56,274 nt of DNA from Desulfovibrio sp. (GTDB lineage: Bacteria > Desulfobacterota > Desulfovibrionia > Desulfovibrionales > Desulfovibrionaceae), in contig NZ_JAAVBE010000028.1 of the NCBI RefSeq assembly GCF_014803725.1, forward strand, positions 24,571-80,844, given 5' to 3'. The position numbers were made by a program, and so were the translations under genes. The notes under the pieces are model-generated. The model made no database searches. It had not been told where the DNA came from and worked only from the letters and a program-made list of their open reading frames with translations. How positions within the stretch are numbered: position 1 is the first letter of the stretch; each line of letters starts with the position of its first letter. Positions 19,911-44,121 of the stretch are shown piece by piece.

Positions 19911-19974
19911 CGAAGTCCCGCAAGGCTTTTCACACCTTGCGGGACTTCGCTGTTCCAAGAAATGGTGCCCACCA
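19911..19974. repeat. Left attachment-site repeat (distal att of the island)
   Basis: Bases 19911-19967 are identical over 57 bp to 44056-44112. After a 2-base gap, CCCACCA also matches the tRNA-Met acceptor end of the right copy, so this copy ends in a damaged duplicate of the tRNA 3' end. The repeat contains a strong hairpin whose arms here extend to 20 bp (19906-19925 and 19935-19954). It marks the distal junction of the integrated element. Confidence 0.8.
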
Positions 19975-20210
19975 TCACTTGAAAAATACTAACAACGCAT
20001 TGATATAGTGTTTTAAAATTTTATTTCTATAATGGGCTGCCCCCAAAGTTGCCCCTTCTTCTTTTCCTGTCCATCGCATAGCCGAAGCGCCATCCCCGCA
20101 CGGCCTGCGCCGGGCCCGATGCCCCAGGAGTGCGGCAGACTCTCCCTTTCTCCTGCCGCGACGCCGTCAGGTGCTCATCCGCCGCCAGCCTCAAACTTCC
20201 GGGGGGTGTG

Positions 20211-20238
20211 TTGACATTAATTTAGTTTTCATTAAAAA
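20211..20238 (+). promoter_or_regulatory. Candidate promoter for the enoate-reductase gene
   Basis: A perfect TTGACA at 20211-20216, a 16-base spacer and TAAAAA at 20233-20238 in an AT-rich stretch, about 115 bases before the start. The spacer shares TTTAGT and TTC with the minus-strand promoter at 23347-23373. Confidence 0.5.
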
Positions 20239-20352
20239 AATCTTCAGCGCACACGAGGAGCCGAATCCACATGGCAGTGGTCATCGACTCCAAGAGGAAA
20301 ACGGCGAATGAAAAATCATCGCCAAGACCTATCAGGAACTGTAGGAGCGGTC

Positions 20353-22326
20353 ATGTCCGAATTTGTCTGTCTTGCGCGTCCGCTGGAAATAGGCGCGGTT
20401 CGCATCAGGAACCGTTTCTGCATGGCCCCCATCGGCGGCGGCCAGCACCACAAGCCCGAGGGCGGCCTCAAGGACGAGACCATCCAGTACTTGGTGGAAC
20501 GCGCCAAGGGGGGCTTCGGGCTGATCTTTACCGGAGCCATCGCCACGGATCATACCGTCGACCCCTATACCGGAGTCGGACCGGCCATTTTGCAGAATCC
20601 CGACGCCTTCCGCATGACCGCCATTGAGCTCAACGAGCGCGCGGCCGTGTACGGCGCAAAGATCTTCGCCCAACTGACCATGGGCCTCGGGCGGAATTAT
20701 CCTAACCTGCCCGCGCCCTCCGTCATGCCGGTCTACGGGCATCCCGGGGAATTTTCCCCGGCCCTGAGCACCGAACAGATCAAGTCCAAGATCGACTCGC
20801 TGGTGCGCTCGGCGGTCATCGCCAAAAACAGCGGCTTTGCCGGGGTGGAGGTGCATTCCATCCACTGGGGCTATTTGCTCGACCAGTTCGCCCTCGCCAT
20901 GTTCAACAAACGCATGGACGACTATGGTGGCAGCCTCGAGAACCGGCTGCGCGCGGCCAGGGAGATCGTGGAGGGCATCAAGCAGGAATGCGGGGCGGAC
21001 TTTCCCGTCAGCATGCGCCTCGGGCTCAAGACCTTCATCAAGGATTTCGGCAAGGGGACCCTTTCCGGCGAGGACGAAAGGGGCCGGACCATCGAGGAGG
21101 GGGTGCGCATCGCGCAACTGCTCGAGTCCTACGGCTACGACTGCCTCAATGTGGATACAGGCACCTACGACGCCTTTTATTACGCCTGCCCGCCCATGTA
21201 CATGCCCAAGGGCTACGGCGTGGAGCTGGCCGCGCGCGCCAAGAAGGCGGTTGTCATCCCCATCCTCGCAGGGGGCCGCATGAATGACCCCTCCATTGCG
21301 GAAAAGGCGGTCTGCGAGGGCAAGATAGACGCCGTGGTGCTCGGGCGCGCCGCCCTGGCCGACCCGGCCTATCCCAACAAGGTGCTCTCAGGGCACCCGG
21401 ATGAAATCCGGCCCTGCATCGCCTGCAACCAGGGCTGCCTTACGCGGCTCCAGCAGGGCAAGCAGCCCTCGTGCGCGGTCAATCCGCAGGCCATGCGGGA
21501 GCTGCGCTTCGCGCTCAGGCCCGCGGCCACGAAGAAAAAGGTCGTCGTGGTCGGGGGCGGCGCGGCCGGCATGGAAGCCGCGCGGGTCGCGGCAAAACGC
21601 GGGCATGAGGTCGTCCTGCTGGAAAAGGGCAAGGAGCTCGGCGGCAACCTCATCCCGGGCGGCTCTCATTCCTTCAAGAAAGAGGTGCGCGAGCTCAACG
21701 CCTGGTACCGGCAGGAGCTTGAGCGGCGGCCCGTGGACGTGCGCCTCGGGACCGAGGCGACGCCGGAGATGCTCCGGGACCTGAGCGCCGATGTCGTCAT
21801 CCTCGCCACGGGCTCGAGCCCGGTTGAAATCTCCGTGCCCGGCGGCGCGGAGGGCAAGGTCCTCGGCTGCCTCGAGGCGCTGGAGAGCCCCGACAAGGTT
21901 GGCGAGCGCGTGGTGGTGGTCGGCGGCGGCCTCGTGGGCTGCGAGATGGCGCTGGAATATGCCATGGACGGCAAAAAGGTGACGGTGGTGGAGACGCTGC
22001 CGCGCATCCTGTCCTCCGGCATCCCCAACCCCATCCCCAATGCCCAGATGCTGCCGGACCTGTTTGAAAAGTACGGCGTGACGGTGCTCACGGGCCACAA
22101 ATTCGCGGGCTTCCGCGATGGCAAGGCGCTTTTGGAGGGCAAAGACGGCGAGGTCGAGGTACCTGCGGATACCATCGTCACGGCCGTGGGCTTCCGGCCG
22201 CGCGCTTCACTGAAAGACAGGCTCGGGCACGACGGGGCGGCAATCTATGAAATCGGCGACCAGCGTTCCGTGGCCACCATCCTTCAGGCCATCTGGGATG
22301 GTTTTGAGATCGGCAACAACCTCTAG
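20353..22326 (+). CDS. NADH:flavin oxidoreductase / enoate-reductase-type enzyme (FadH-like)
   Basis: Multidomain flavoenzyme of the 2,4-dienoyl-CoA reductase, enoate reductase and trimethylamine dehydrogenase group, which reduces activated C=C bonds or related substrates. Residues 1-about 345 are an FMN-binding Old-Yellow-Enzyme barrel (MAPIGGGQHH; HSIHWGYLLDQF; DDYGGSLENRLR). The [4Fe-4S] ligands follow as CX2CX3CX11C (Cys355, 358, 362, 374). Then come an FAD domain (VVGGGAAGMEAARVA, about 400) and an NAD(P)-binding block (VVVGGGLVGCEMALEYA, about 521). 657 aa is normal. I start at the ATG at 20353 because AGGAG lies 5 bases before it. It is the first gene inside the island, with a small NTF2-like gene 20 bases downstream. 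Confidence 0.92.
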   Translation: MSEFVCLARPLEIGAVRIRNRFCMAPIGGGQHHKPEGGLKDETIQYLVERAKGGFGLIFTGAIATDHTVDPYTGVGPAILQNPDAFRMTAIELNERAAVYGAKIFAQLTMGLGRNYPNLPAPSVMPVYGHPGEFSPALSTEQIKSKIDSLVRSAVIAKNSGFAGVEVHSIHWGYLLDQFALAMFNKRMDDYGGSLENRLRAAREIVEGIKQECGADFPVSMRLGLKTFIKDFGKGTLSGEDERGRTIEEGVRIAQLLESYGYDCLNVDTGTYDAFYYACPPMYMPKGYGVELAARAKKAVVIPILAGGRMNDPSIAEKAVCEGKIDAVVLGRAALADPAYPNKVLSGHPDEIRPCIACNQGCLTRLQQGKQPSCAVNPQAMRELRFALRPAATKKKVVVVGGGAAGMEAARVAAKRGHEVVLLEKGKELGGNLIPGGSHSFKKEVRELNAWYRQELERRPVDVRLGTEATPEMLRDLSADVVILATGSSPVEISVPGGAEGKVLGCLEALESPDKVGERVVVVGGGLVGCEMALEYAMDGKKVTVVETLPRILSSGIPNPIPNAQMLPDLFEKYGVTVLTGHKFAGFRDGKALLEGKDGEVEVPADTIVTAVGFRPRASLKDRLGHDGAAIYEIGDQRSVATILQAIWDGFEIGNNL

Positions 22327-22346: not shown

Positions 22347-22730
22347 ATGCGTGACAAGCTGGCGGAATACGATGCCGTTGCCAAAGCGGCGGAAAAATTC
22401 GTGAAAAGCGTGGCCGAGGGAACCAGCAAATATGCCCGCGAGCTCTTTGTGGACGAGGCCGTGCTGTTCGGCTACCTGGACGGCAAGCTGGAGCACGGCT
22501 CCATCGAGCAGTTTTACCACAATGTGGACACCGTGCCGGGCGACAAGAATTTCAAGGCCCGCATCGATGTGCTGCTCGTGGAGGAGACGCTGGCCGTGGT
22601 CCGCATCCTCGAGGAAGGCTGGGGGGGCAGGATTGACTTCACCGATGTGCTGTTGATGCTCAAGATGAACGGCGAGTGGAAGTGCGTCGCCAAGGCCTAT
22701 AACCAGAATTCCGAAACCATCAGCAAGTAG
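22347..22730 (+). CDS. NTF2-like protein (cytoplasmic, SnoaL/lumazine-binding-like fold)
   Basis: 127-aa protein with no signal peptide. The pattern of N-terminal helices (VAKAAEKFVKSVAEG), a FVDEAVLFGYLDGK segment and alternating strands ending in FTDVLLMLKMNGEWKCVAKAY is typical of the NTF2-like cone fold used by small isomerases, hydrolases and binding subunits. It is 20 bases after the enoate-reductase gene, so it may act on the same substrate. A related but secreted protein is encoded on the opposite strand just downstream. Confidence 0.8.
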   Translation: MRDKLAEYDAVAKAAEKFVKSVAEGTSKYARELFVDEAVLFGYLDGKLEHGSIEQFYHNVDTVPGDKNFKARIDVLLVEETLAVVRILEEGWGGRIDFTDVLLMLKMNGEWKCVAKAYNQNSETISK

Positions 22731-22850: not shown

Positions 22851-23270
22851 TTACTTGATGTGGTAGACCTTGCTCACGATCTTCCAGTCATCGCCGTCCT
22901 TTACCAGGGTGAACATGTCGTCAAAGCTCGTGTCCCCGAACTTTGAATCGATGCTCACCACCGCCACGTCGCCGGCCACCTTCACTGTCTCGATCTTGTA
23001 AGTGGCGTTATGCGGCCCGGTCTTGTCATAATAGGCGAAGAGCTCACTGATGGGCACGGTGACGAGCTTGCCCTTTTCCGCATAGGACATGGTCGCCTTG
23101 GGGGCGAAGGCAGGCTCGGCGATCTTGCTGTCGCCCTTCACAGCCGCCTCGGTGTAAAGATTGAGGGCCTTGGTGATGCCTTCCATGTCCTTGGCGTCAT
23201 CGGCGCAAGCCGGGCTGATGTTCCACAAAAAGGCCGCCAGCGCCAGCGTAATCAGGACCAGTTTTTTCAT
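22851..23270 (-). CDS. Secreted NTF2-like protein
   Basis: 139-aa protein with a clear signal peptide: MKK, a hydrophobic stretch (LVLITLALAAFLWNIS) and a likely cleavage site near AcaD at about residue 23-24. The mature part has the NTF2-like pattern, ending in FDDMFTLVKDGDDWKIVSKVYH, which resembles the end of the cytoplasmic NTF2-like protein at 22347. It is likely periplasmic. It is divergent from the iron-sulfur flavoprotein gene and shares its about 290-base control region. Confidence 0.85.
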   Translation of the reverse strand: MKKLVLITLALAAFLWNISPACADDAKDMEGITKALNLYTEAAVKGDSKIAEPAFAPKATMSYAEKGKLVTVPISELFAYYDKTGPHNATYKIETVKVAGDVAVVSIDSKFGDTSFDDMFTLVKDGDDWKIVSKVYHIK

Positions 23271-23448: not shown

Positions 23449-23473
23449 GCGGTATTGATTTAATCAATACCGC
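23449..23473. promoter_or_regulatory. 25-bp palindromic operator
   Basis: A perfect dyad: GCGGTATTGATT, one central base, AATCAATACCGC. The core ATTGA/TCAAT resembles an extended LysR-type box. It sits between divergent genes (secreted NTF2-like protein and iron-sulfur flavoprotein). A 13-base half (TATGCGGTATTGA, reading outward on the minus strand) recurs exactly at 41924-41936 upstream of the minus-strand TRAP operon. Confidence 0.7.
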
Positions 23474-23563
23474 ATAAAGAAAAAAAGTATTTGTCGACGC
23501 CCGCCATCCGGTTTTTAAGAAAGTATCCATTCCACCATAGGACTTCAAACAAGGATGGCAGCG

Positions 23564-24193
23564 ATGAAAGTTCTGGCTCTCAATGGCAGCTCCAACAAGA
23601 ACGGCGTGACCCGCCATGCCATTGACCTGGTCGGGGAGGAATTGGCGAAGGAAGGCATCGGCATGGACGTGATCCACGTGGGCGCCAAGCCCGTGGCCGG
23701 CTGCCTGGACTGCCGCAAGTGCCGCACCAACGGCCACCATTGCGTCCACAACGACATCGTGAACACGATCATCGACAAGCTCCCCGAATATGACGGCCTC
23801 ATCCTTGGCTGCGCCGTGCATTACATGGGCATTCCCGGCCCCTTCAAGTCCGTGATGGACCGGCTGCTCTACGCTACCGAGCACCTTGAGGGCTGGGGTC
23901 CCAAGCCGGCCACGGCCATCGCCGTCTGCCGCCGCGCCGGGGCCATCAACGCGGTACAGCAGCTGGGCAACTACCTCAACTGCTCCAACCTGCTCACGGT
24001 GAACAGCCAGTACTGGAACATCGGCTTCGGCTGGAAGCCCGAGGAATTTCTCACCCAGGACGCCGAGGGCGTGCAGACCATGCGCGTGCTGGGCAAAAAT
24101 TTCGCCTGGATCATGAAGGTGCTGGACGCCACGAAAGACAGCATCCCGCGCCCAACCTATGAGAAGCGGGTGCGCGCCAACTTCTGCCGCTGA
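23564..24193 (+). CDS. Iron-sulfur flavoprotein / NADPH-dependent FMN-reductase family
   Basis: Flavodoxin-fold protein of 209 aa. The FMN phosphate loop is LNGSSNKNG at residues 6-14, and HYMGIPGPFKSVMDRL is the second flavin-binding loop. A compact cysteine motif, Cys47-X2-Cys50-X2-Cys53-X6-Cys60, matches the [4Fe-4S] signature of iron-sulfur flavoproteins (Isf), so it is probably an electron-transfer protein rather than a simple flavin reductase. I start at the ATG at 23564: AAGGA is 8 bases away, while the ATG at 23555 abuts it. First gene of a plus-strand operon with amidohydrolase, SDR, TAXI and TRAP genes; preceded by the palindromic operator. Confidence 0.87.
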   Translation: MKVLALNGSSNKNGVTRHAIDLVGEELAKEGIGMDVIHVGAKPVAGCLDCRKCRTNGHHCVHNDIVNTIIDKLPEYDGLILGCAVHYMGIPGPFKSVMDRLLYATEHLEGWGPKPATAIAVCRRAGAINAVQQLGNYLNCSNLLTVNSQYWNIGFGWKPEEFLTQDAEGVQTMRVLGKNFAWIMKVLDATKDSIPRPTYEKRVRANFCR

Positions 24194-24204: not shown

Positions 24205-25041
24205 ATGAAAGCCATCGATTTTCGCCTGCGGCCGCCCTTCAGGAGCTATCTCAACTCCTTCATGTATGACATGCCCGCGCTTGAGCGCTCGCACAAGGCG
24301 CGGGACCTGGGCGAAGTTTCCCCGGCCGCGAGCCGCAAGGACTGCCGCCTGCTCGTGGAGGAAATGGACGCCGCCGGCGTGGTCTGGGGCGTGGCCCCGG
24401 TGCGCCTGCCGCAGGAGGCGGACAACGAGGACGCCCTGCGCCTCATGGAAGAGTATCCGGGCCACTTCCTCGGCATCCCCTGGATCGACCCTCTCACGCC
24501 GAAAGCGGCCGTCGCCGGGATTGAACGCTACTGCGTGAACGGCCCCTGCAAGGGCATCATCCTCGAGCCCGGCCTCTACACCACGCCGGTCAAGTGGTAC
24601 CTCAACGAGCCCGGCATCTTCCCGGTGTACGACTACTGCGAGGAACGCGGCATCCCGGTGCTCGTCTCCTTCGGCGGCCGCGTGGCCGACCCGCGCTATT
24701 ACGCGCCGGAACTGGCCTATGACGTGGCGACCCGCTTCAAAAAGCTCAAGCTGGTGCTCTGCCACGGCGGCTGGCCCTTTGTGACGGCCATTTGCAAGGT
24801 CGCCATGGACTGCCCCAATGTCATCCTCTCGCCGGACACCTGGGCCATGGACTTTGCGCCGGGCGCGGCGGACTATATGGTGGCCGCCAACTACATGCTT
24901 CAGGACCAGATCGTCTTCGGGAGCTCGTATCCGGCCATGCCGCTGGCCGCGGCCGTGGAGAACTACGCGCGGCGCCTGCGCCCGGAAGTGGCGGAAAAGG
25001 TCATGTACGGCAATGGCGCAAGGCTTTTCGGCCTAGAATGA
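24205..25041 (+). CDS. Amidohydrolase-fold protein with degenerate metal site (paralog 1)
   Basis: 278-aa TIM-barrel protein resembling the Amidohydro_2 family (PF04909), which includes decarboxylases, lactonases and hydrolases. The usual HxH on strand 1 is replaced by DFRLRPPF (residues 5-12). The barrel His is kept in LCHGGWPFV (about 187), but the usual C-terminal Asp of GSDYP is Ser in FGSSYP (about 238). A conserved Glu in LEPG is shared with the three other copies in the island. Zinc-dependent hydrolysis is therefore doubtful; a metal-independent lyase, lactonase or isomerase is possible. It is 11 bases after the iron-sulfur flavoprotein gene. Confidence 0.85.
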   Translation: MKAIDFRLRPPFRSYLNSFMYDMPALERSHKARDLGEVSPAASRKDCRLLVEEMDAAGVVWGVAPVRLPQEADNEDALRLMEEYPGHFLGIPWIDPLTPKAAVAGIERYCVNGPCKGIILEPGLYTTPVKWYLNEPGIFPVYDYCEERGIPVLVSFGGRVADPRYYAPELAYDVATRFKKLKLVLCHGGWPFVTAICKVAMDCPNVILSPDTWAMDFAPGAADYMVAANYMLQDQIVFGSSYPAMPLAAAVENYARRLRPEVAEKVMYGNGARLFGLE

Positions 25042-25111: not shown

Positions 25112-25894
25112 ATGAATCTGGAAGGCAAGATCGCCATCGTGACCGGCTCCAATTCCGGCATCGGCGCGGCACAGGCCGAAACCATGGCCGCGCAGGGGGC
25201 CTCCGTGGCCGTGTGCGGCAGGGACCGGGCGCGGGTGGACGCCGAAGTGGACAAAATCAGGGACGCCGGCGGGAAGGCCATCGGCATGGCCTTTGACGTG
25301 CAGGACACGCCGGCCATCAAGGAATTTTATGAGCTCGTCATGCACACCTGGGGCCGGGTGGACGTGCTCGTGACCACGCACGGCATCTTCGACCAGCGGC
25401 GGGGCTCACTGGAAATGACGGAACTCGACTTCCAGAAATTCATGCAAATCAACGTCATTTCCGTGTTCAATTTCTGCAACCTGGTGCTTCCGCAGATGAT
25501 CGAGCGCAAGAAGGGCTGCATCCTCGCCACGGCTTCCATCAGCGGCATGCGCAACACCGCCCAGGGTGGCCCGCGCGGCAGCGCCGGCGGCGGCTCGGTC
25601 TATACCTCCTCCAAGCACGCGCTGGTGGGCTACATGCGCAGCCTGAGCGCGCTCTATGCGTGGCAGGGGGTTCGCGTCAACGTCATCTGCCCCGGCTCCG
25701 TGGTGACGCCCTTTATCCAGGACAGCCTCGACAACGACCCGGACGGCTATGAGCGCCGCGTGCGCGTCATCCCGGCTGGGCGCCTCGGCGTGCCGCAGGA
25801 CGTGGCGTGGCTCACGGCCTTCCTCGCCAGCGACGAGGCCGACTTCATCAACGGCGCCGTCATCCCCGTGGATGGCGGCCGCTCCAATGTGTAG
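25112..25894 (+). CDS. Short-chain dehydrogenase/reductase
   Basis: Classical SDR of 260 aa with a Rossmann fold. Cofactor motif TGSNSGIG (about 11-18); active-site Tyr164 and Lys168 in YTSSK, with the Ser in SISGM before it; and a C-terminal FINGAVIPVDGG typical of FabG-like members. AGAGGA precedes the ATG. Downstream of an amidohydrolase and 25 bases before a TAXI binding protein, it probably oxidises or reduces a hydroxyl/keto intermediate of the imported compound. The specific substrate cannot be told. Confidence 0.92.
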   Translation: MNLEGKIAIVTGSNSGIGAAQAETMAAQGASVAVCGRDRARVDAEVDKIRDAGGKAIGMAFDVQDTPAIKEFYELVMHTWGRVDVLVTTHGIFDQRRGSLEMTELDFQKFMQINVISVFNFCNLVLPQMIERKKGCILATASISGMRNTAQGGPRGSAGGGSVYTSSKHALVGYMRSLSALYAWQGVRVNVICPGSVVTPFIQDSLDNDPDGYERRVRVIPAGRLGVPQDVAWLTAFLASDEADFINGAVIPVDGGRSNV

Positions 25895-25919
25895 CCGTGG
25901 ACCGACAGAGGAGGATATA

Positions 25920-26924
25920 GTGAGCACTTTCCTGCGCAAAATTCTGGTCGCATGCGCGGCCGTGGCGCTTTTGACGGCGCTTTCTCCCCACAATGCCCGC
26001 GCGGCGGACGATGACGGCACGGGCGTCAAGATGACACTGGCTGGCGGCCCGCTGGGCGGGGGGGCCTCCATGGCGCTCGCGGCCTTCATGAAGGCCTTCT
26101 TGGCCCAGTATCCCAACGCCAAGGTTGACCTGATGCCCGGCAACGGCACGGCTAACCCGGCGCGCGTTTCCGCCGGGCAGGTCAACGTGGCCCACGCGCA
26201 GGGCGCGCTGCTCAAGGCGGCCAGCGAAGGCAAGGCGCCCTACAAGAAGAAGCACGACAACCTGCGCTCGCTCTTCTCGCTCAACGACGACTGCCGGCTC
26301 CTGCTCTTCGCGCGCGAGGACGCCCCCATCCAAAGCCTTGAGGACCTGGCCAAGAACCATCCCGCCATCCGCCTGAGCCCGGCCACGCGCGGCTCCACCA
26401 ACGACATGTTCACCCGCTGGGCGCTCGGCGCCTATGGCGTGGACTACCCGGATATCGAGAAGTGGGGCGGCACGGTCACCTATATCAACTTCGACGCCAT
26501 GGTCGACGCCATGAAGGACAAGCAGCTCGACATGGTGGGCTACAACGGCCCCGGCTTCCCGGCCTTCCTGCGCCAGATACTGCTCTCCAACCCGGTGCGC
26601 TTTTTGCCCGTGGGCGAAGAGGAAATGGCCAAGCTCAAGGAGCGCGGGCTCAAGGCCTCGGTCATCAAGGCGGGCGAGTTCGAGGGGCTGCCCCCGCAGG
26701 ACGTGCCCGTTGCCACGGACACCACGGAGATTATCTGCAGCGCGGACATGCCCGACGAGCTGGCCTACAAGATCGCCAAGATCTGGACGGAAAACGCCAG
26801 GGACATCGCCCTCGCCAATCCGGGCTACGGCACCTTTGACCCGGCGGTGAGCTGCAAGAACACGGCGCTGCCGCTGCACCCCGGCGCGGAGCGCTATTTC
26901 CGCGAAGCCGGCTACCTCAAGTAA
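25920..26924 (+). CDS. TAXI-family TRAP solute-binding protein (set 1)
   Basis: Periplasmic binding protein of a TAXI-TRAP transporter. I start at the GTG at 25920, with GAGGAGG a few bases upstream; it begins a signal peptide (FLRKILVACAAVALLTAL, cleavage near ARAAD). The mature N-terminus LAGGPLGGGASMAL occupies the TAXI glycine-rich loop, and the C-terminal LPLHPGAERYFREAGYLK is shared with the other two sets. 334 aa. The TRAP permease follows 24 bases later. Substrate unknown; TAXI proteins bind small organic anions such as carboxylates or glutamate. Confidence 0.92.
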   Translation: MSTFLRKILVACAAVALLTALSPHNARAADDDGTGVKMTLAGGPLGGGASMALAAFMKAFLAQYPNAKVDLMPGNGTANPARVSAGQVNVAHAQGALLKAASEGKAPYKKKHDNLRSLFSLNDDCRLLLFAREDAPIQSLEDLAKNHPAIRLSPATRGSTNDMFTRWALGAYGVDYPDIEKWGGTVTYINFDAMVDAMKDKQLDMVGYNGPGFPAFLRQILLSNPVRFLPVGEEEMAKLKERGLKASVIKAGEFEGLPPQDVPVATDTTEIICSADMPDELAYKIAKIWTENARDIALANPGYGTFDPAVSCKNTALPLHPGAERYFREAGYLK

Positions 26925-26948: not shown

Positions 26949-28850
26949 ATGCAGAACCGTTTACGCGCCTGGCTCCAATACGTCTTTGTTGCCCTGGCGG
27001 TGGTGCTCACCGTGTTCCAGCTCTACAGCACGTCGGGCATCGCCATCTTCAACTCCACCCTGCAGCGCGTGGCCCACTTGAGCCTCGTGCTCTGCCTGAC
27101 CTTTATTTTCGTGCCCTGCAATACCAAGTATGGCAAGGAAAAGCCGGAACCGCCCCTGCTCACGGTCATCGACATCGCCCTGGCCTGCCTCGCGATGGGC
27201 ATCGCCGTCTTTTATTTCCAGAATTCCAACGAGATCTTTGACCGCTTCGCCTATGTGGACGAGGTGACGCCGCAGCAGATGTTCTTCGGCACGGCTCTCA
27301 TCGTGCTTGTGCTGGAGGCCACGCGCCGGGCGGCGGGGCTGCCCCTCGTCATCGTGGCGCTCTGCTTCATCGCCTATGGCCTGTTCGGGGCGGATCTCCC
27401 CGGGGCCTTCGGCCATGTGCCCATCACGCCGGAAGCCATGATCGAGCAGCTCTTCCTGCTCACCGAAGGCATCTACGGCGTGGCCATCGGCGCGGCGGCC
27501 ACCATGATTTTCGCCTTTGTGCTCTTCGGTGCCTTTCTCGAAGTCTCCAACATGAGCAGCGTCTTCATGGACCTCTCGTGCGTGCTGACCCGGAAGGCCA
27601 AGGGCGGTCCGGCCAAGGTGGCCATTTTCGCCTCGGCGCTTTTCGGCACCATCTCCGGCTCGGCGCAGGCCAACGTCTACGGCACGGGCATTTTCACCAT
27701 CCCGCTGATGAAGAAGGTGGGCTATTCCGCGCCCTTCGCCGGCGCCGTGGAAGCCTGCGCCTCCACGGGCGGCCAGCTCATGCCGCCCATCATGGGCGCC
27801 GCGGCCTTCATCATGGCCGACATAACCCAGGTGGGCTACCTGACCATCGCCAAGTCGGCGCTTCTGCCCTCCATCCTGTTCTATCTCTCGCTCTACGCCA
27901 TGATCCATTTCGAGGCCGTGAAGCACAATATCGGCACCATGCCAGCAAGCGAGATACCCCCGCTTTCGTCGGTGACGCGGCGCCTCTACTACCTGCTGCC
28001 GCTGGCCTTCCTCATCGTGATGATGCTGCTCGGGCGTAGCGTGAACTTCTCGGCCTTCGCTGGCTGCGGGGTCATCTTCCTGCTCTCGCTCTTCCGGGAG
28101 GAAACGCGGCTCACGCCGCGCCGGCTCCAGAAGGTCGCCGTCACCGCCACCCGCAACACCCTGATGATCACCTGTGCCTGCGCCTGCGCGGGCATCGTGG
28201 TGGGCATCATCAGCCTCACGGGCGGCGGCTTCAAGCTCATCAACATCCTCATGTCCTTCGTGGACGGCAATTTGCCGCTCCTGCTCGTCATGCTCATGCT
28301 TACCTGCTTCATTGTGGGCATGGGCGTGCCTACGGCCCCGGCCTACATCATCGTTTCCGTGCTGGCGGCGCCGGCCATGATCAAGCTCGGCGTGCCCATG
28401 ATCGGGGCGCACATGTTCTGCCTCTATTACGCCGTGCTCTCCACCATCACGCCGCCCGTGTGCATGGCGGCCTTCTCGGCGGCAAGCATCGCGGACGCCA
28501 ACGCCATGCGCACCGGCTTCACGGCGGTGAAGCTCGGGGCCATCGCCTTCATCATCCCCTTCTTCTTCGTTTACCAGCCGGAGCTCTTGTTCCAGGGCTC
28601 CTTCCCTGACATAGTCATGGCGACGGTGACGGCCATCGTCGGCGTCATCGGCATGACGGCCGGGCTCCAGCGCCAGTTCCTCACGGGCTGCGGCATCGTC
28701 GAGTCGGCCCTGCTGTTCGCGGGCGGCCTGTGCTGCATCTATCCCGGCTCCCGGACAGACCTCATCGGCCTCGGGCTCATCCTCGGCATCGGCCTCTTCC
28801 AGTACTGGCGCAGGCTACCCCGACACGGTGAGCCGGCAAGGGCGGAATGA
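26949..28850 (+). CDS. TRAP transporter fused permease (set 1)
   Basis: Fused small-plus-large TRAP permease (DctQM type) of 633 aa. Four N-terminal helices (about residues 10-135) form the DctQ-like part and about 12 further helices the DctM part. Hallmarks are GGPAKVAIFASALFG, STGGQLMPPIMGAAAF and the symmetric GMGVPTAPAYIIVSVL/ITPPVCMAAFSAAS blocks of the second half. It imports the substrate delivered by the binding protein just upstream using an ion gradient. Its stop overlaps the LysR start (ATGA). Confidence 0.95.
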   Translation: MQNRLRAWLQYVFVALAVVLTVFQLYSTSGIAIFNSTLQRVAHLSLVLCLTFIFVPCNTKYGKEKPEPPLLTVIDIALACLAMGIAVFYFQNSNEIFDRFAYVDEVTPQQMFFGTALIVLVLEATRRAAGLPLVIVALCFIAYGLFGADLPGAFGHVPITPEAMIEQLFLLTEGIYGVAIGAAATMIFAFVLFGAFLEVSNMSSVFMDLSCVLTRKAKGGPAKVAIFASALFGTISGSAQANVYGTGIFTIPLMKKVGYSAPFAGAVEACASTGGQLMPPIMGAAAFIMADITQVGYLTIAKSALLPSILFYLSLYAMIHFEAVKHNIGTMPASEIPPLSSVTRRLYYLLPLAFLIVMMLLGRSVNFSAFAGCGVIFLLSLFREETRLTPRRLQKVAVTATRNTLMITCACACAGIVVGIISLTGGGFKLINILMSFVDGNLPLLLVMLMLTCFIVGMGVPTAPAYIIVSVLAAPAMIKLGVPMIGAHMFCLYYAVLSTITPPVCMAAFSAASIADANAMRTGFTAVKLGAIAFIIPFFFVYQPELLFQGSFPDIVMATVTAIVGVIGMTAGLQRQFLTGCGIVESALLFAGGLCCIYPGSRTDLIGLGLILGIGLFQYWRRLPRHGEPARAE

Positions 28851-34403: not shown

Positions 34404-34404
34404 G

Positions 34405-34770
34405 ATGAAAGAGTATCCGGCCAACCGCCTGCCCCTCTCCATGGGCAATGCCAGAAAGCCCCTGCGCATCACCGTTGTGCGCACAACGGAACTCAAGGAT
34501 ATTTACGGCGACACGCCGCCCAAGGGCCTGTGCGGCCAAACGGAAATGACGTGCCCCTGCTTCAAGGTCGGGGACTGCTACATGGTGACGGACAAGGGCG
34601 GGAAGCCCCCGGCCGACTTTCCCTGCGCTTGGGCGTGGCATGACCTTTTCCAGGTGGTACTGGGGCTGCAACTCGGCGGCAATTATCCCGAATTTGAGGA
34701 AGGTGTTTATTACGCTTCCTGTACCAACGGATTGCACCCGGTCTTTTTCAGGCTGGAACGCGTGGAGTAA
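34405..34770 (+). CDS. TIGR04076 family protein (copy 2 in island)
   Basis: 121-aa paralog of the preceding gene with the same order of motifs: LRITVVRTT, CPCFKVGDCY, FPCAWAW and SCTNGLHPVFFRLE. It differs at the last Cys pair (CCTDG becomes SCTNG). GGAGGG lies upstream of the ATG at 34405. The tandem pair may form a heterodimer. A bidirectional terminator follows at 34788. Confidence 0.85.
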   Translation: MKEYPANRLPLSMGNARKPLRITVVRTTELKDIYGDTPPKGLCGQTEMTCPCFKVGDCYMVTDKGGKPPADFPCAWAWHDLFQVVLGLQLGGNYPEFEEGVYYASCTNGLHPVFFRLERVE

Positions 34771-36579: not shown

Positions 36580-38151
36580 CTAGAAGGAATAGACGAACTT
36601 GAGCTGGCCCTTCCACGAATCCTGCTTCTGGAAGGAGGAATTGCGGTTGCCGGCCTTTTTCCAGGTGTCGTTGTCGATGAAGTTGGCCACATAGCCCCAC
36701 TCCATCTGCACCGTGAAGTTCTCGTACATCTTGTAGTTGCTGAGCAGGTTGAACTCCAGGAGGCCGTCATTGGTGGTCAGGTAGGGGCCGTCCCACTTGC
36801 ACCAGGCGTCGTTCCAGGCATAGGCGTTGTTCATGTACTTCACCATGCCGGGCGAGTTGGTACCACCCCAGTAGGCGGCGCGGATGGTATGCTTGAGGTC
36901 GTTCACGAGGAAGGAGACGTCCTTCAGCTGCAGGCCAACGCCCCAGGTGCCCGCGTAGTCCAGCGACTGGTCGTACCAGCTCCCGAGCGACCAGGGATTG
37001 TCGCCGAGGAAGGAGGTGAAATTGCCATAGGCCGCAAGGCTCGGCATCCGCTCGGAGCCGTTCTTGGGATTGCCGTCGTCACCGGAGGCGTACCAGCCGA
37101 AAACGCCGGGCTTGCCCCAGTCAAACTTGTATTCCACCAGGGCCTTGGCGAGCCAGCCCTGGCGTTCGGTGCTGGCGCGTTTCAGGTTTTCCGGCCGGGT
37201 CGCGCCCTTGTAGGCGTTGTACCGGCCAAGGGCGCCCACATAGCCGTAGTTGAGGTCCAGCTCGAAATTCCAGGGCTCCAGCGCGGTGATACCCAGCGGC
37301 AGGCCCGCCCAGAACAGGTTGGCGTAGCCCTTGCTGGTGTTGCTATTGGTGTAGTCGCCGCGCGCCATGACGCCGGGATAGGGCAGCAGGGTGTAGTTGG
37401 TCCAGCCGGCCGTGGAGTAGCGCGCCAGCTGCGGGTCGCCCGCGGCGTTGACGTTCCACTGGGTGTTCTTGCCCAGCATGCCGAACATGGCCCAGGGCGT
37501 CGCCTCGAAACCGTCATAGGTGATAGGCACGGTGAGGGCGAAAAGGTCCAGGTTGTCCAGATAGTTCTGGTGGTAGTTCTTTACGCCGTCCTTGTCCTCG
37601 CCGGGGTAATTGTCGTTGTAGGGGCGCCCCCACATGGCCGTAAGGCCCAGATTGTCATTTATCTTGTAGTTGGCTAGAATGGCCGCTATGCGCGTACCCA
37701 TGATGGCCGTGCCACCGGCCTTGTTGGGCATTGCGACATACTGGATGCCCATGCGAGTCTTCAGGTCCGTATTGGGCATCCTCCAGTCTATGTAGGCCCA
37801 GCGCACTTTCACGATCTTGCCGTCCGCACCCAGGGCCGCGCCCTGGTCCGCGTTGCCCCAGGTGGTGGCTCCGAGCTGGATCTGCACCGTGGCGGACAGG
37901 TTTTCCGAGGCGATGGCCTCCACGGACAGCCTGATGCGCTGCTTGGTGTCGAACTCGTCATCCGTGAACTTGTTGCGCGTTGTGCCATTGCGCGTTTCCT
38001 TAAGCAGGCGGTACTGGCCCACGTCAAAATTCATCAGCCACTGACCGCCGATCTTGAAGTCGATGGCATTGGCCTCGGCCCCTCCGCAGAGCGGAAGCAA
38101 CGCCGCAGCGAGGGTCAGCCCCGCCAGTTTTTTCCCCCATTTCCTCTTCAT
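36580..38151 (-). CDS. Outer-membrane porin (Desulfovibrio-type trimeric family)
   Basis: 523-aa beta-barrel porin. A signal peptide (KKLAGLTLAAALLPLCGG, cleavage near AEANA) is followed by FKIGGQWLMNFDVGQY and many alternating strands with Trp/Tyr girdles. It ends in LKFVYSF with the terminal Phe needed for barrel assembly. It resembles the major homotrimeric porins of Desulfovibrio. Its place in a TRAP-TAXI-SDR-amidohydrolase operon suggests a dedicated outer-membrane route for the same substrate. Confidence 0.88.
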   Translation of the reverse strand: MKRKWGKKLAGLTLAAALLPLCGGAEANAIDFKIGGQWLMNFDVGQYRLLKETRNGTTRNKFTDDEFDTKQRIRLSVEAIASENLSATVQIQLGATTWGNADQGAALGADGKIVKVRWAYIDWRMPNTDLKTRMGIQYVAMPNKAGGTAIMGTRIAAILANYKINDNLGLTAMWGRPYNDNYPGEDKDGVKNYHQNYLDNLDLFALTVPITYDGFEATPWAMFGMLGKNTQWNVNAAGDPQLARYSTAGWTNYTLLPYPGVMARGDYTNSNTSKGYANLFWAGLPLGITALEPWNFELDLNYGYVGALGRYNAYKGATRPENLKRASTERQGWLAKALVEYKFDWGKPGVFGWYASGDDGNPKNGSERMPSLAAYGNFTSFLGDNPWSLGSWYDQSLDYAGTWGVGLQLKDVSFLVNDLKHTIRAAYWGGTNSPGMVKYMNNAYAWNDAWCKWDGPYLTTNDGLLEFNLLSNYKMYENFTVQMEWGYVANFIDNDTWKKAGNRNSSFQKQDSWKGQLKFVYSF

Positions 38152-38202: not shown

Positions 38203-38931
38203 TCAGTTCATGTACTGACCGCCGCAAACATCCAGGGTGCAGCCGGTGGTATAGGTGGCGTCGTCCAGCAGGAAGGCAATGGCCACGGCCGCCTCTTCCG
38301 CCGTGCCGATGCGGCCCATGGGCACCCGCTTTTCCGTGGCCTCGCGGTTGGGAAGCATCCGCGTGTCGATGGGCCCGGCGGCCATGCAGTTGACGCGGAT
38401 ATGGTCCGCCGCCACTTCGCGCGCGAGGCCCTTGGTGAAGGCGATGATGCCGGCCTTGCTGGTGGCATAGGCGGTCTTGGCGTGGCCCGGCGCGCCCCCC
38501 GCCGTGGAAAAGCCGTTGCGCCCGGCCGTGGAGCTGACGAACACGATAGCCCCGCCTCCGGCCCCCCTGAAAGCGGGGAGCACGCACTTGGCAAGGTAAA
38601 AGGAGCTGGTGAGGTTGTTGCGGAGGATATGGTCCCAGAATTCCGGCTCCATTTCCTCCACCGAAGGCGCCGGCGTGGGATTGAGCGCCGCGCAATGGAC
38701 GAGCGCGGTGACGCGCCCGTGTTTTTGCGCCTCCTCCACCAGGCGGCGACAGTCCTCATAGACGCCCACATCGCATTGCACGCTGACGCCGCCGATAGCC
38801 TCAAGGTCCGCCGCCGCAAGCGGCGTGCTCCGCCAGGTGGCCGCCACCAGATACTTTTTGCCGAGCAGTTTGGCCGTGGCGAGGCCGATGCCCGTGGCCG
38901 CGCCGGTCACTATGACCACATCCCTGTTCAT
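38203..38931 (-). CDS. Short-chain dehydrogenase/reductase (second)
   Basis: 242-aa classical SDR. GAATGIGLATAK (about 10-21) is the NAD(P) loop; the YATSK active-site Tyr and Lys and ALNPTPAPS follow; the C-terminus TYTTGCTLDVCGGQYMN is FabG-like. It is not a close copy of the SDR at 25112. It lies 22 bases after the TAXI stop and 51 before the porin start. Confidence 0.92.
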   Translation of the reverse strand: MNRDVVIVTGAATGIGLATAKLLGKKYLVAATWRSTPLAAADLEAIGGVSVQCDVGVYEDCRRLVEEAQKHGRVTALVHCAALNPTPAPSVEEMEPEFWDHILRNNLTSSFYLAKCVLPAFRGAGGGAIVFVSSTAGRNGFSTAGGAPGHAKTAYATSKAGIIAFTKGLAREVAADHIRVNCMAAGPIDTRMLPNREATEKRVPMGRIGTAEEAAVAIAFLLDDATYTTGCTLDVCGGQYMN

Positions 38932-38952: not shown

Positions 38953-39927
38953 CTACTTCAAGACGCCCTTTTCGCGGTAATACCTGGCGGCCCCGGGATG
39001 GAGCGGCGCGGCGGTGTTGGGCGCGTCCTCCAGGTTCAGTGTCGACCACAAGGGCACAGCAGTGGCGATGTCGTCCCGGTGTTCCATGATGGCCTTGGTG
39101 ATGCGGTAGACCAGGTCCTCGGGCATGTCCGCGTTGACGATGAGCTCCGTGTGCGTGGTCAGCCCGCGCAAGCCCTTCACCTTGCCGTCATAGGCGGTTT
39201 CGGAAAATTCCGTCACCTCGCCGCCAAACTCCCTAGCGAGCTTTTGCAGGATCTCCTCATCCACGGGCAAAAAGCGGATGGGCGTGGTGGAGAGGATGTC
39301 ATTGTATTTGAAGGCCGGCTCCTCGCCGTGGTACACATCGACTTCGATGCGGCCGTCCTTCATCATGTCGATGGAATCGGGGATGGAGAGGGGATAGAGC
39401 TTGGCGCCCTGTTCCTTGAGCTGCTTCCAGCCGATGCCGTATTCCTCGAAGATGCGCCTGGGCAGGAGCTCGTTGTTACCGCCCACGGGATTGATGTTGA
39501 TGCGCACGGGCAGCTTCTTGTCGCGGATGTCCTCCAGTGAAGTGATGCCGCTGTCCTCGCGCACGGCGATATGCGTGTGCGCCCTGGTGTTCACGTTGGC
39601 GAGTCCCATGACCTTGTCCTGCACGCCCTTGAACGGCGCGTCGCCCTTGACGGCCATGTGCGCATTGTTGGATTGCACCACGCCGATGCCGGACTGCCCC
39701 TTCTGCACCCGAAGCACGTTGCTCAGGCCCGCCGAGGGAAACATGGTGTAGTCGATATCCGGGTTATCCTGCATGATTGCCTTGCCCACGGCGCCCATGC
39801 CCACATAGAACACGCCGCCCTGGTTGCCGCTGGCGGCGTTGAGCTCGAGCTTTTCCGCCGCGCCCGCGCCCTGCGCCAGAAAAATCGCGCACGCGAAACT
39901 CGCCAGTTTGAAAAGGGCTTTACGCAT
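38953..39927 (-). CDS. TAXI-family TRAP solute-binding protein (set 3)
   Basis: 324-aa periplasmic binding protein. Starting at the ATG ending at 39927 (AAGGAG upstream) gives a signal peptide (ALFKLASFACAIFLAQG, cleavage near AGAAE). The mature protein begins LNAASGNQGGVFYVGMGAVG, a TAXI glycine motif; the C-terminus APLHPGAARYYREKGVLK matches that of set 1. Its start overlaps the end of the TRAP permease gene by 8 bases, the reverse gene order of the other two sets. Confidence 0.92.
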   Translation of the reverse strand: MRKALFKLASFACAIFLAQGAGAAEKLELNAASGNQGGVFYVGMGAVGKAIMQDNPDIDYTMFPSAGLSNVLRVQKGQSGIGVVQSNNAHMAVKGDAPFKGVQDKVMGLANVNTRAHTHIAVREDSGITSLEDIRDKKLPVRININPVGGNNELLPRRIFEEYGIGWKQLKEQGAKLYPLSIPDSIDMMKDGRIEVDVYHGEEPAFKYNDILSTTPIRFLPVDEEILQKLAREFGGEVTEFSETAYDGKVKGLRGLTTHTELIVNADMPEDLVYRITKAIMEHRDDIATAVPLWSTLNLEDAPNTAAPLHPGAARYYREKGVLK

Positions 39928-41812
39928 TTTCCTGCTCCTTAAGGTGAAGGTTGGGTCTGCCACTCAGCTTCTGCACCAGAAGCACCAAGAGGCAGAGACC
40001 GATGCCCGCCATATCCGTAGAGAGGCCGGGCAAAATCATGCACAGGCCGCCAATGATGAGGCACAGCCTCTCCCCCAGCGAAGTCTTCTTCAGCAGCCAG
40101 CCCTGCATCCCGGCGGCCAGCGCCACCACGCCTATGATGGAGGTGATGACGGCCACAGTGATTTCCATGGCCGTGCCCTGCGCCAAAAGCGCGGGCGCAT
40201 AGACGAACATGAAGGGAATGACAAAGGCCACCACGGCCAGCTTTGCCGCCACAAAGCCGGTTTTCATGGCATTGGCCTTGGCTATGGCCGCTCCGGCGAA
40301 GGCGGCCTGGCACACAGGGGGCGTGACCACCGAGATGATGGCGTAATAGAAGCAGAACATATGCGCCACGATGGCCAGGCAGCCGGCCTTGATGAGCGCG
40401 GGGGCGCCCAGGGCCGCCACAATGATGTAGGCCGGAGCCGTGGGTACGCCCATGCCGAGGATGATGCAGATGACCATGAGGCAGACACAGAGGATAAAGA
40501 GATTGTTGCCCGCGAGGTCGGTGATGGCCGCCATGAGCTTGAAGCCCACGCCGGTGAGCGAGATGACGCCGATGATGATACCCGCGCAGGCGCAGCAGGC
40601 GCCGATCATCAGCGCGTTGTCGGCGGAGAGGACGAGCGCCTGGGTGAAGCTCTTGAAGGTGAAGCGCGTCTCGGAGCTGAACAGGGCGATGATGGGTATG
40701 GAAAGCGTGGCGGCATTGGCGCAGAAACTCACGCTGCGGCCCATGCACATGAGCGTGATGAGCACCACGATGGGCAACAGATAATAGAGCCGCCGGAACA
40801 CGCGCTCCCTCGTGGGCACGAGCTCGGGGTCGATAAAGCCCAGGTTGGACTTCACGGCCTCAAAATGGATCATGAACCAGAGCGAGACATAATAGAGAAT
40901 CGCCGGTAGCAGCGCGGACTTGGCCACCGTGAGATAGGGCACGTTGGCGAGGTCAGCGAGGATGAAGGCCGCCGCCCCCATGATGGGCGGCATGATCTGG
41001 CCGCCCGTGGAGGCCACGGCCTCCACTGCGCCGGCGAAGGTGGGCTTGTAGCCGACCTTCTTCATGAGCGGGATGGTGAAGATGCCCGTGCCGTACACAT
41101 TGGCCACGGCCGAGCCGGAGAAGGTGCCGAACATGCCCGACGCGAAAATGGCCACCTTGGCCGGCCCGCCCCGGGATTTCCGGGTCACGAGGCAGGCGAT
41201 GTCCATGAAGATGTTGGTCATGTTGGACTTTTCGAGAAAAGCCCCGAACATGATGAAGCCGAAAATGGTGCCGCAGGCGACCGAGGTGGGTATGCCGTAC
41301 AATCCCTCGTTGGAAAGGTACATGCACTCCACGATCATGTCAGTGGAGATGTCCATGCGCTTCAGCGCCGAGGGCAGCATGTCGCCCCAGACGGCGTAGG
41401 CGAGGAACACCAGCGAAATGATCACCAGCGGCCAGCCCGTCATGCGCCGCGTCACTTCAAGAGTGAGGACGACGGCGAGGATGCCCAGCCAGCGCGCCGT
41501 TTCCGGGATGTCGTCCACATAGCGCATGCGCTCCATGATCTCGTCGGTATGCAGCATGATGTAGGCCGCAATGGCGATGGCGAGCACGCAACAGCAAAGG
41601 TCGCAGAGAATGACCAGCAGGTTTTCGGAGCGCCCGTCTTTGGGCGTATAGGGCGGCTTGAGCAGAAAGATGAGGACCATGACGAAGGCCACAAAATCCG
41701 CCCGCATCTGCGTCCCTTCCAACACGCCAAAGCTCGTGAACCAGATCTGGAACAGGGTAAATACAATGGCAACAGCAGCCGCCACCGGTTTCAGACTTTG
41801 CCTTGTGAGCAT
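39920..41812 (-). CDS. TRAP transporter fused permease (set 3)
   Basis: 630-aa fused DctQM permease. I start at the ATG ending at 41812 because AGGTGG lies 7 bases upstream; the frame opens 12 codons earlier without a ribosome site. GGPAKVAIFASGMFGTFSG, STGGQIMPPIMGAAAF and GMGVPTAPAYIIVAAL match set 1 closely, so sets 1 and 3 are probably paralogs. First gene of the long minus-strand operon; the operator-like site at 41924 lies 112 bases upstream. Confidence 0.95.
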   Translation of the reverse strand: MLTRQSLKPVAAAVAIVFTLFQIWFTSFGVLEGTQMRADFVAFVMVLIFLLKPPYTPKDGRSENLLVILCDLCCCVLAIAIAAYIMLHTDEIMERMRYVDDIPETARWLGILAVVLTLEVTRRMTGWPLVIISLVFLAYAVWGDMLPSALKRMDISTDMIVECMYLSNEGLYGIPTSVACGTIFGFIMFGAFLEKSNMTNIFMDIACLVTRKSRGGPAKVAIFASGMFGTFSGSAVANVYGTGIFTIPLMKKVGYKPTFAGAVEAVASTGGQIMPPIMGAAAFILADLANVPYLTVAKSALLPAILYYVSLWFMIHFEAVKSNLGFIDPELVPTRERVFRRLYYLLPIVVLITLMCMGRSVSFCANAATLSIPIIALFSSETRFTFKSFTQALVLSADNALMIGACCACAGIIIGVISLTGVGFKLMAAITDLAGNNLFILCVCLMVICIILGMGVPTAPAYIIVAALGAPALIKAGCLAIVAHMFCFYYAIISVVTPPVCQAAFAGAAIAKANAMKTGFVAAKLAVVAFVIPFMFVYAPALLAQGTAMEITVAVITSIIGVVALAAGMQGWLLKKTSLGERLCLIIGGLCMILPGLSTDMAGIGLCLLVLLVQKLSGRPNLHLKEQENA

Positions 41813-41923
41813 AGTGCAGCCACCTGGTTTTGCGTTATTTCGTGCCAAATCGACTTGATAAACTGGATTCTACTTTCAGATATTTAGAGGAAGCGGCCCA
41901 TTAATAAAATTACAATTTTTTTA

Positions 41924-41946
41924 TATGCGGTATTGAGAAAACCAAT
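41924..41946. promoter_or_regulatory. Operator upstream of the minus-strand TRAP operon
   Basis: TATGCGGTATTGA at 41924-41936 is identical to 13 bases of the palindrome at 23449 (with its flanking ATA), in the same orientation relative to the controlled gene. The other arm (CCAAT) is degenerate. This is direct evidence for shared regulation of the two island arms. Confidence 0.6.
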
Positions 41947-42306: not shown

Positions 42307-42346
42307 GCAAGATGACACATGTGCGGTAGCACATGTGTCATCTTGC
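42307..42346. repeat. Perfect 17-bp inverted repeat
   Basis: GCAAGATGACACATGTG (42307-42323), loop CGGTAG, then the exact complement (42330-42346). There is no T-run on either side, so it is not a simple terminator. It lies in the integrase-proximal end of the island. Confidence 0.8.
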
Positions 42347-42404
42347 CAGGAAGAACCCCCAACGTAACCGGGACACGGGCCCGAGGGGAAAAGGGGTAAT
42401 ACAC

Positions 42405-42776
42405 TTGCCTAAAAACGACCGGGAACGGCCACGAAAAAAGGAAGACTGGCGGGGGAGAAATGAGAAATTTGCTGCGGCAAAAGGGCAGGGCTGTGTCTCG
42501 GAAAAACTGTCACTTGGAAATTGGGAAAAGTGGGGTGACGCGTTCAGGAATCGTGAGGCGTGGAAGGAAGAAAACGCTCACCGCTCAACTGCGGAAACGC
42601 AAAAAATGCTCAAGGAATTTTGCGAAAATGGATTTGCAGAAAAACCGTCTGAGCACCGCGCAAAGACGCTCGTATTTTTTCGGGAAAAGGCACAGCATAC
42701 AGAGCAAAAACTTGGGACGTCCTCCAAGAAAACGTGGTTATCCGCGCTTGGCCGGCAGCGAAATGGTGCTCCGTAA
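42405..42776 (+). CDS. Small charged hypothetical protein next to the integrase
   Basis: Possible TTG-initiated 123-aa protein; AAGGGG lies 8 bases before the TTG. It is rich in Lys, Arg and Glu (DRERPRKKEDWRGR, WKEENAHRSTAETQK) and clearly more AT-rich than the host genes. It overlaps the integrase 3' end antisense by 39 bases. The site and size would suit an excisionase or DNA-binding protein of the element, but I see no HTH and the frame may be chance. Confidence 0.3.
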   Translation: MPKNDRERPRKKEDWRGRNEKFAAAKGQGCVSEKLSLGNWEKWGDAFRNREAWKEENAHRSTAETQKMLKEFCENGFAEKPSEHRAKTLVFFREKAQHTEQKLGTSSKKTWLSALGRQRNGAP

Positions 42777-43946
42777 TCCGTCCAAAAAGTCGGCCCACTC
42801 CTGCATCATGCGGTGACGCTCGGGCAGGAACTCGGCGTGATTATACGCGGCGCGGACATGGTTCCTTTCGCCGTGGGCAAGCTGGCGTTCTATCCAGTCG
42901 CGATTATAGCCCAGCTCATTGAGGAGGATAGAGGCCATGCTCCGAAAGCCGTGGGGCACGATTTCCTCCTTGCCGAAGCCCATGGCGCGCAGAGCCACCA
43001 ACAAGGACTCCAGTGCGATGGGCTTGGTGTCGGTCCGCATGGAAGGGAAGAGGAAGCGTCCGTGCCCCGTATACAGCGAAAGCTCGTTGAGGATCGCCAG
43101 GCTCTGCCGCGCCAGCGGGACAATGTGGCGCTGCTTCATCTTCATCTTTGCAGCCGGGATGCGCCATTCCGCGTTTTCAAAATCTATTTCCGACCACTCG
43201 GCCGAGCGCAGCTCTCCGGGCCGCACGAAAAGAAGCGGCGCCAGTCGTAGCGCTGACTTGACGGGCAAAAAACCACCATAGGCGTCAATGGCGCGAAGAA
43301 GCTCGCCGATGCGCTTTCTGTCGGTAATGGTGGCCATGTGCCGGACGTTCACTTTCGGAAGCGCGCCCTGCAGCCCTTGGGTGATGTCATACTTGCAACG
43401 CCCGGTGGCGATGCCGTAGCGCAGGAGCTGCCCGCACAACTGCACGAGCCTGTGCGCGGTTTCCACGGCCCCGCTTTCCTCCACATGGCGCGCAGCCTTG
43501 AGGATGTCCGCCGGTTCGACCTCGGCAATATGCTTGCCGCCGAACACGGGGAAAACCTTTTTTTCAAACAGCGCGCGGACTTTTTTCCCATAGCTCGGCG
43601 CAAGCTGGCTCACATGCTTGTCGAACCACTCACGGCTGACAGCTTCAAAGGAGTCCGCCTCCCTGCTCAAAATGCTGGCCTTTGTGGCTTGCCTTTGGGC
43701 GCTGGGGTCGATGCCGTTTGCCAGCAGCCTCTTGGCTTCGTCCCGCCGCTGCCGGGCCTCTTTCAGGCCGATGGTGGGATAGGTGCCGAGGGAGATGCGC
43801 TTTTCCTTGCCCTGCACACGGTATTTCAAGCGCCACCACTTGCCGCCGCTGGGAGCAAGTTCCAGATACAGACCTTCGCCGTCAAACATTCGGACAGTCT
43901 TGCTTTGCGGCTTTGCAGCCCGTATGGCGGTATCGGTGAGGGGCAT
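42738..43946 (-). CDS. P4-type tyrosine recombinase (site-specific integrase)
   Basis: 402-aa integrase of the P4/CP4 family that inserts elements at tRNA genes. The start MPLTDTAIRAAKP is typical for this family; an N-terminal Arm-binding domain (GLYLELAPSGGKWWRLKYR, GTYPTIGLKEARQRRDEA) is followed by the catalytic domain with Arg in RPGELRSAEW (about 241), HGFRS (about 331) and the nucleophile Tyr in VRAAYNH (about 367). It looks intact. A TTG start 66 bases upstream is also possible. It lies 162 bases from tRNA-Met, just inside the right attachment repeat, and is transcribed away from it. Confidence 0.93.
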   Translation of the reverse strand: MPLTDTAIRAAKPQSKTVRMFDGEGLYLELAPSGGKWWRLKYRVQGKEKRISLGTYPTIGLKEARQRRDEAKRLLANGIDPSAQRQATKASILSREADSFEAVSREWFDKHVSQLAPSYGKKVRALFEKKVFPVFGGKHIAEVEPADILKAARHVEESGAVETAHRLVQLCGQLLRYGIATGRCKYDITQGLQGALPKVNVRHMATITDRKRIGELLRAIDAYGGFLPVKSALRLAPLLFVRPGELRSAEWSEIDFENAEWRIPAAKMKMKQRHIVPLARQSLAILNELSLYTGHGRFLFPSMRTDTKPIALESLLVALRAMGFGKEEIVPHGFRSMASILLNELGYNRDWIERQLAHGERNHVRAAYNHAEFLPERHRMMQEWADFLDGLRSTISLPAKRG

Positions 43947-43994
43947 GGGGGCAACACTTCGACGGAGTTTTATGTTGCCCCCAGACTTGCCCCC
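43947..43994. promoter_or_regulatory. Candidate integrase arm/operator sites
   Basis: A perfect 9-bp inverted repeat GGGGGCAAC (43947-43955) / GTTGCCCCC (43974-43982) abuts the integrase start codon, and a second TTGCCCC lies at 43988-43994. TTGCCCC-type motifs also occur at the left end (20038-20055). They may be Arm-type binding sites or an integrase autoregulatory operator. Confidence 0.45.
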
Positions 43995-44055
43995 AAAAGT
44001 GGTGGATGTCAACCCACCTCAAGCGACCACATTGGAGAACATATCCAAGAAAAAC

Positions 44056-44121
44056 CGAAGTCCCGCAAGGCTTTTCACACCTTGCGGGACTTCGCTGTTC
44101 CAAGAAATGGTGGGCCCACCA
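44056..44121. repeat. Right attachment-site repeat, overlapping tRNA-Met 3' end
   Basis: 44056-44112 is identical to 19911-19967. It holds the tRNA terminator hairpin (CGAAGTCCCGCAAGG paired with its complement; followed on the minus strand by TTTTT) and the first bases of the tRNA acceptor end, including the encoded CCA. It is the tRNA-proximal attachment site of the island. Confidence 0.8.

Follow-up and report, generated by a model that had tools for sequence, protein, structure and literature searches.

In the Islander survey (PMC4383910), no genome had more islands than Desulfovibrio magneticus RS-1, with 19, and tDNA islands had an intact tRNA at one end, a tRNA fragment at the other and a tyrosine integrase. 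The locus described here likewise showed these parts. Unlike in those islands, the identical block was mostly a terminator hairpin here. The displaced tRNA fragment was short, and two of its bases were absent. The integrase of phage P4 was 40.5% identical to the island integrase over 95% of the protein, and attP arm repeats are annotated in the P4 record as well. The solved relatives of the island integrase were pieces of CP4-like and phage integrases. In contrast to P4, no P4 replication family was recognised in the island by Pfam. A genomic island of Desulfovibrio vulgaris Hildenborough (Environ Microbiol 2009, 11:981) reportedly promotes stress survival and lowers growth efficiency, going by the title of that paper. 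It is likewise a genomic island in a sulfate reducer.

The window, a stretch of 56,274 nucleotides from a Desulfovibrio sp., contained a block at 19968-44112 that we regard with high confidence as a genomic island whose own P4-type tyrosine integrase inserted it. Its cargo was predicted to serve the uptake and breakdown of small organic compounds. The block was read as an island because two identical 57-bp repeats beside a tRNA(CAT) gene bound it and the relative G007 lacks it at the same place. It belongs to an already known kind, the tRNA-integrated genomic islands, of which it is a well-delimited and clean example. The initial annotation had proposed this layout. In agreement with it were the intact tRNA and, at the opposite end, the damaged tRNA end, as well as an integrase adjoining the tRNA and the empty site in G007. 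The features are listed in Table 1.

Table 1. Features of the island and its boundaries, in window coordinates.
Feature	Position	Strand	Family match or basis
Distal repeat copy (attachment site): chromosomal tRNA terminator hairpin + CACCA	19911-19967		Identical to 44056-44112; outer side G007-like
Rest of tRNA 3' end, CCCACCA, two bases absent before it; island left edge	19968-19974
Candidate left integrase arm sites CTGCCCCC, GTTGCCCC	20037-20055		Motif only
OYE / 2,4-dienoyl-CoA-reductase-type flavoenzyme	20308-22326	+	PF00724, PF07992; best solved relative 6qkg, labelled NCR
Lumazine_bd_2 small protein	22347-22730	+	PF12893
Second Lumazine_bd_2 protein	22851-23270	-	PF12893
Predicted LysR operator, 25-bp near-palindrome GCGGTATTGATT-T-AATCAATACCGC	23449-23473		Sequence pattern
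NADPH-dependent FMN reductase	23555-24193	+	PF03358
Amidohydrolase AH1	24205-25041	+	PF04909
Short-chain dehydrogenase SDR1	25112-25894	+	PF13561
TAXI solute-binding protein 1 (coordinates of the listed ORF; translation probably starts beyond 25894)	25749-26924	+	PF16868
Fused TRAP permease 1	26949-28850	+	PF06808, TIGR02123
LysR-type regulator	28847-29767	+	PF00126, PF03466
Amidohydrolase AH2	29813-30700	+	PF04909
TAXI solute-binding protein 2	31044-32027	+	PF16868, TIGR02122
TRAP permease 2	32059-34002	+	PF06808
TIGR04076 family protein	34020-34403	+
Second TIGR04076 family protein	34402-34770	+
Amidohydrolase AH3	34830-35714	-	PF04909; 3irs-like
Amidohydrolase AH4	35653-36513	-	60% identical to AH3
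Outer-membrane homotrimeric porin, DESULF_POR1 family	36580-38151	-	NF033939, 385.6 bits vs cut-off 250; no Pfam family
Short-chain dehydrogenase SDR2	38203-38931	-	PF13561
TAXI solute-binding protein 3	38953-39963	-	PF16868
TRAP permease 3	39920-41848	-	PF06808
Second, partial copy of predicted operator	41924-41946	-	Sequence pattern
Small ORF, overlaps integrase end	42405-42776	+	No family match
P4-type tyrosine integrase, 424-aa ORF, likely start codon 23	42738-44012	-	PF13356, PF22022, PF00589
Three candidate right arm sites (GGGGCAA/TTGCCCC)	43948-43993		Motif only
tRNA-proximal repeat copy	44056-44112		Identity with 19911-19967
Intact tRNA(CAT), target gene	44108-44183	-	tRNA-Met(CAT) call; Rfam tRNA at 44111-44183

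Attachment repeats and the target tRNA

The perfect direct repeat of 57 bp claimed beforehand was found, with 57 of 57 bases identical between the two copies, differing neighbouring bases on both sides and a start-to-start spacing of 24,145 bp. In the assembly, both copies stood in the integrated context. As also claimed, the right copy ran into the 3' end of the intact tRNA-Met gene, a CAT tRNA that may be elongator Met or Ile2. The tRNA part of the repeat was its last five bases (CACCA) only, and the remainder was mostly a terminator-like hairpin with a 16-pair stem. At the left copy, alignment of GGTG--CCCACCA with GGTGGGCCCACCA at the tRNA showed the 2-base gap to be real, in agreement with the damaged tRNA end described there. 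The hairpin energy of the right copy was -35.7 kcal/mol and that of the left -47.2; for each copy none of 200 shuffles was as good. A terminator scan also found the right-copy hairpin. In the proposed mechanism, the integrase would have recombined the island site with the tRNA 3' end. Since the hairpin is part of the identical block, the tRNA would have kept a terminator, while its original one would have moved 24 kb away.

With up to three mismatches, a 56-base piece of the repeat had exactly two matches in the host's own 2.63-Mb genome and the reversed control had none. The 35-base hairpin core matched six places with three mismatches allowed, four of them outside the repeat pair. Same-stem hairpins stood at these four other places, one of them after tRNA-Leu(CAG). 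The initial annotation had named a repeat scattered through the genome as a common tRNA terminator as evidence against an island; this did not apply to the full repeat, which occurred at two places, but it did apply to the hairpin part, which is of a recurrent tRNA-terminator type. On contig C6 of the same genome, locus L079 showed at 9845-9879 a tRNA-like 3' end, judged by eye, together with the same hairpin type. No tRNA gene was called at L079 and no integrase match was found within 19 kb around it. This site is likely the remnant of another island.

TTGCCCC-type motifs at the inner ends of the island are candidate arm sites. Four of the 10 such motifs in the window fell in the two inner ends, a count for a motif picked post hoc. 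Similar repeats preceded the integrase in relatives; in the contigs L166 and L167, GGGGGCAA or GGGGTAA repeats lay ahead of it. A perfect 18-bp inverted repeat (GCAAGATGACACATGTGC) was located at 42307-42346, just before the small ORF at 42405-42776.

The integrase and other elements at the same tRNA

The integrase was said to be intact and to lie just inside the right repeat, and its ORF was indeed open, with arm-binding, central and catalytic domains all present according to Pfam. Its catalytic residues were judged by eye only, against known motifs. Among the matches listed, seven full-length integrases, including that of the window, shared at least 66% identity, and all seven were located at the same tRNA. 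A tree of 27 proteins placed the integrases of the window, G004, G013, G018 and G005 in a supported clade (99/97), each 96-113 nt from this tRNA. A second G018 integrase with 57% identity, the sixth row of the tree, stood beside a different CAT tRNA. A strict equation of the integrase clade with tRNA-Met was dropped on account of this protein; on the tree, two changes of the label are required. The integrase was beside the tRNA in five of 17 same-type tRNA loci, the window included; this frequency is biased, as loci were included if they resembled the integrase or the right flank, and L069 was cut by a contig end. In the host genome, 16 matches to the integrase protein were among those listed, fragments included. 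Besides tRNA(CAT), they adjoined tRNAs Leu(CAG), Leu(TAA), Glu(CTC), Asp(GTC), Asn(GTT) and Ser(GGA, in pieces). Partial integrase matches among those listed included contig C66 of G022 and contig C7 of G026.

Two contigs of the IMG/VR viral collection, L166 and L167, which were outside the tree, shared with the island the same tRNA, the hairpin and an integrase of 70-71% identity. In contrast to the island, they carried phage-type proteins, and seven L166 and L167 proteins that were scanned comprised no metabolic cargo. L166 encoded a Rha-type regulator and L167 a virion structural protein family. Pfam matched three of ten proteins from L166, L167 and the G018 element, as Rha, LPD3 and DUF927. 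L166, a phage-like contig at the same tRNA, also encoded at 7866-14885 a 2339-aa protein with an LPD3 domain. No defence gene was found among ten proteins, of which nine came from elements whose integrases are related and the tenth from the G010 locus.

These neighbours bear on a reading of the block as the decayed form of a prophage or phage satellite whose phage genes gave way to metabolic ones. The related integrases at the same tRNA, beside a Rha-type regulator or a virion structural protein, speak for it. Against it, no phage structural, replication or packaging Pfam family was found in 21 of 22 likely island genes, the 22nd matching TIGR04076, and we consider this reading unlikely. PHROGs was run on the integrase and the 42405 ORF only. 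A prophage with recognisable phage genes was rejected, as none were found in the window element. The same 21 genes contained no relaxase or conjugation Pfam family, and an ICE or IME was rejected on this ground. For the preferred reading, an integrase-inserted genomic island, cell-to-cell transfer would need outside help, because no transfer gene was recognised.

Metabolic cargo and its relatives

The cargo had been described as three TAXI-TRAP transporters, a porin, enzymes and a LysR regulator, and matches to Pfam- and TIGRFAM-type families bore this out. It comprised three diverged amidohydrolase/TAXI-TRAP modules, with mutual identities of 34-60% for the four amidohydrolases, 23-32% for the three TAXI proteins and 36-51% for the three TRAP permeases. 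The best solved relative of the amidohydrolase (3irs) is labelled uncharacterized. The porin and the TAXI-TRAP systems would import substrates for the amidohydrolases, dehydrogenases and flavoenzymes. The block probably gives its host a compact uptake-and-breakdown trait, and we infer that a whole catabolic trait may be mobile.

Two copies of a predicted operator were located on the island. The near-palindrome preceded the FMN reductase operon and the partial copy preceded the TRAP3 operon; no further site of this pattern was found in the host genome with up to three mismatches. Among 162 loci, the exact predicted operator was absent except for two from the window's own stretch. The island LysR protein may act at both predicted sites and thereby co-regulate two operons that face each other.

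Relatives of the cargo occurred together in Candidatus Mailhella excrementigallinarum, where TRAP-TAXI-SDR and FMN reductase-AH4-AH3 relatives showed 71.5-75.5% DNA identity (best piece per gene). The TRAP, TAXI, SDR, LysR (38%), FMN reductase, AH4 and AH3 relatives at this locus all ran in one direction. Within 20.9 kb it contained no tRNA and no integrase match, and the predicted operator was not evident, with 11 weak matches against 5.7 expected. AH3 was also matched by proteins named uncultured Bilophila, at 74% and 61%, and the OYE relatives at 71% included one named Lachnospiraceae. No plasmid home was found for AH3: 120 plasmid records matched, each with its best place below 60% identity and the best rows at 44%. 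Searches returned no literature joining TAXI, TRAP transporter and amidohydrolase with Desulfovibrio, and none joining TAXI, TRAP and amidohydrolase with genomic island. A second cluster in the host genome (contig C6, L082:7925-13587) encoded an FMN reductase and an amidohydrolase 75% and 37% identical to island proteins. A hairpin of the island-repeat type, with three mismatches, lay near this cluster.

Empty site, flanks and mosaic ends

The empty site was found in G007, a relative of another species than the island host. On its contig C11, the order was window 10154-13436 (90%), 18210-19709 (84%), approximately 186 unaligned bases, the hairpin, an intact tRNA and the right flank (86%). The 24-kb island was missing between the left flank and the tRNA, all on one stretch. 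The initial annotation had suggested comparison with relatives lacking the island, and in G007 the left flank runs via the hairpin into the intact tRNA(CAT). The same gene block at this place in all relatives, without the repeats and integrase, had been named as evidence against an island; this was not the case, as G007 lacks the block here. On the immediate left of its hairpin, G007 resembled the left copy of the window (90% over 92 bases including the hairpin), and for this reason the outer side of the left copy is most simply read as the chromosomal one.

The left flank, used as a query with five candidates scored per genome, matched in 14 of 61 genomes, the host included. Besides the host genome, its gene-bearing part was matched at length only by G007; in G038, 43 bases of it were matched and the other matches listed were the hairpin. 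The left flank itself appears accessory, because G007 was the only one of 60 relatives with substantial matches to its genes under this scoring. Left-flank GC contents of 0.641 and 0.547 suggest older insertions there. The segment 13437-18209 (FAD protein, MatC-type carrier and LysR gene) was missing from the collinear G007 locus. Its genes were present in G004 at 97-99% protein identity, and an 82% MatC relative was found near a porin gene elsewhere in G006. Either the lineage of the window gained this segment in a separate insertion, or G007 lost it separately.

An empty site could also result if the block were old resident DNA that G007 lost by recombination between the terminator repeats. 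The repeats could serve such a deletion, and cargo relatives exist in Mailhella and Bilophila. However, where related integrases occur at this tRNA, their elements carry other genes, of phage type in L166 and L167, and no window-cargo match was found around the integrases of G013, G018 and G005, where ~2 to 10 kb inside those elements were covered. The GC content of the island (0.615) is also unlike that of the flanks (right flank, 0.689; window 1-13436, 0.695). In 60 relatives, with four candidates scored per genome, the DNA matches listed were mostly porin and TRAP pieces, and flavoenzyme-region pieces in G004 and G033 were among them. We regard the resident-DNA explanation as very improbable. 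A further explanation, that a common tRNA terminator occurs here twice independently and that the block in between is not one mobile unit, would accord with the four other same-stem hairpins but was rejected as having next to no probability, since the 56-base piece with part of the tRNA end and spacer occurs at these two places only and the interval is missing at the empty site.

With the block read as an inserted island, its two ends were also found in G004, a genome that is 63% complete. The integrase end from 42771 rightward matched at 93% and the OYE left end to 23438 at 90%, on separate contigs, and the DNA adjoining each matched end differed from the window. The 28.8-42.3 kb part was not found in G004, save for porin-region and short weak matches. 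At L094:100-180 of G004, the island left end joined unrelated DNA exactly where the tRNA end in the window lacks two bases, and no hairpin was present. This junction could be a secondary site, a deletion or a chimera. The first 59 bases of this left-end contig matched G007 near an apparent rRNA operon end, judged by eye. An origin of the G004 pattern from incomplete assembly or a chimeric contig is possible. In the window, the two unique operator copies (23449 and 41946) flank the interval between the G004-matching ends. A tentative and rather doubtful reading is that of a reusable chassis, in which a phage-lineage integration module with its own tRNA terminator and a fixed OYE left end would have complete, self-regulated catabolic blocks swapped in.

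The locus provides a precisely delimited, testable island with a whole uptake-plus-enzyme set, at a tRNA site common to phage-like elements and islands with related integrases. If the island excises, a single step could suffice for members of the group to gain or lose a metabolic trait, and the pairing of integrase and tRNA could become a genetic tool.
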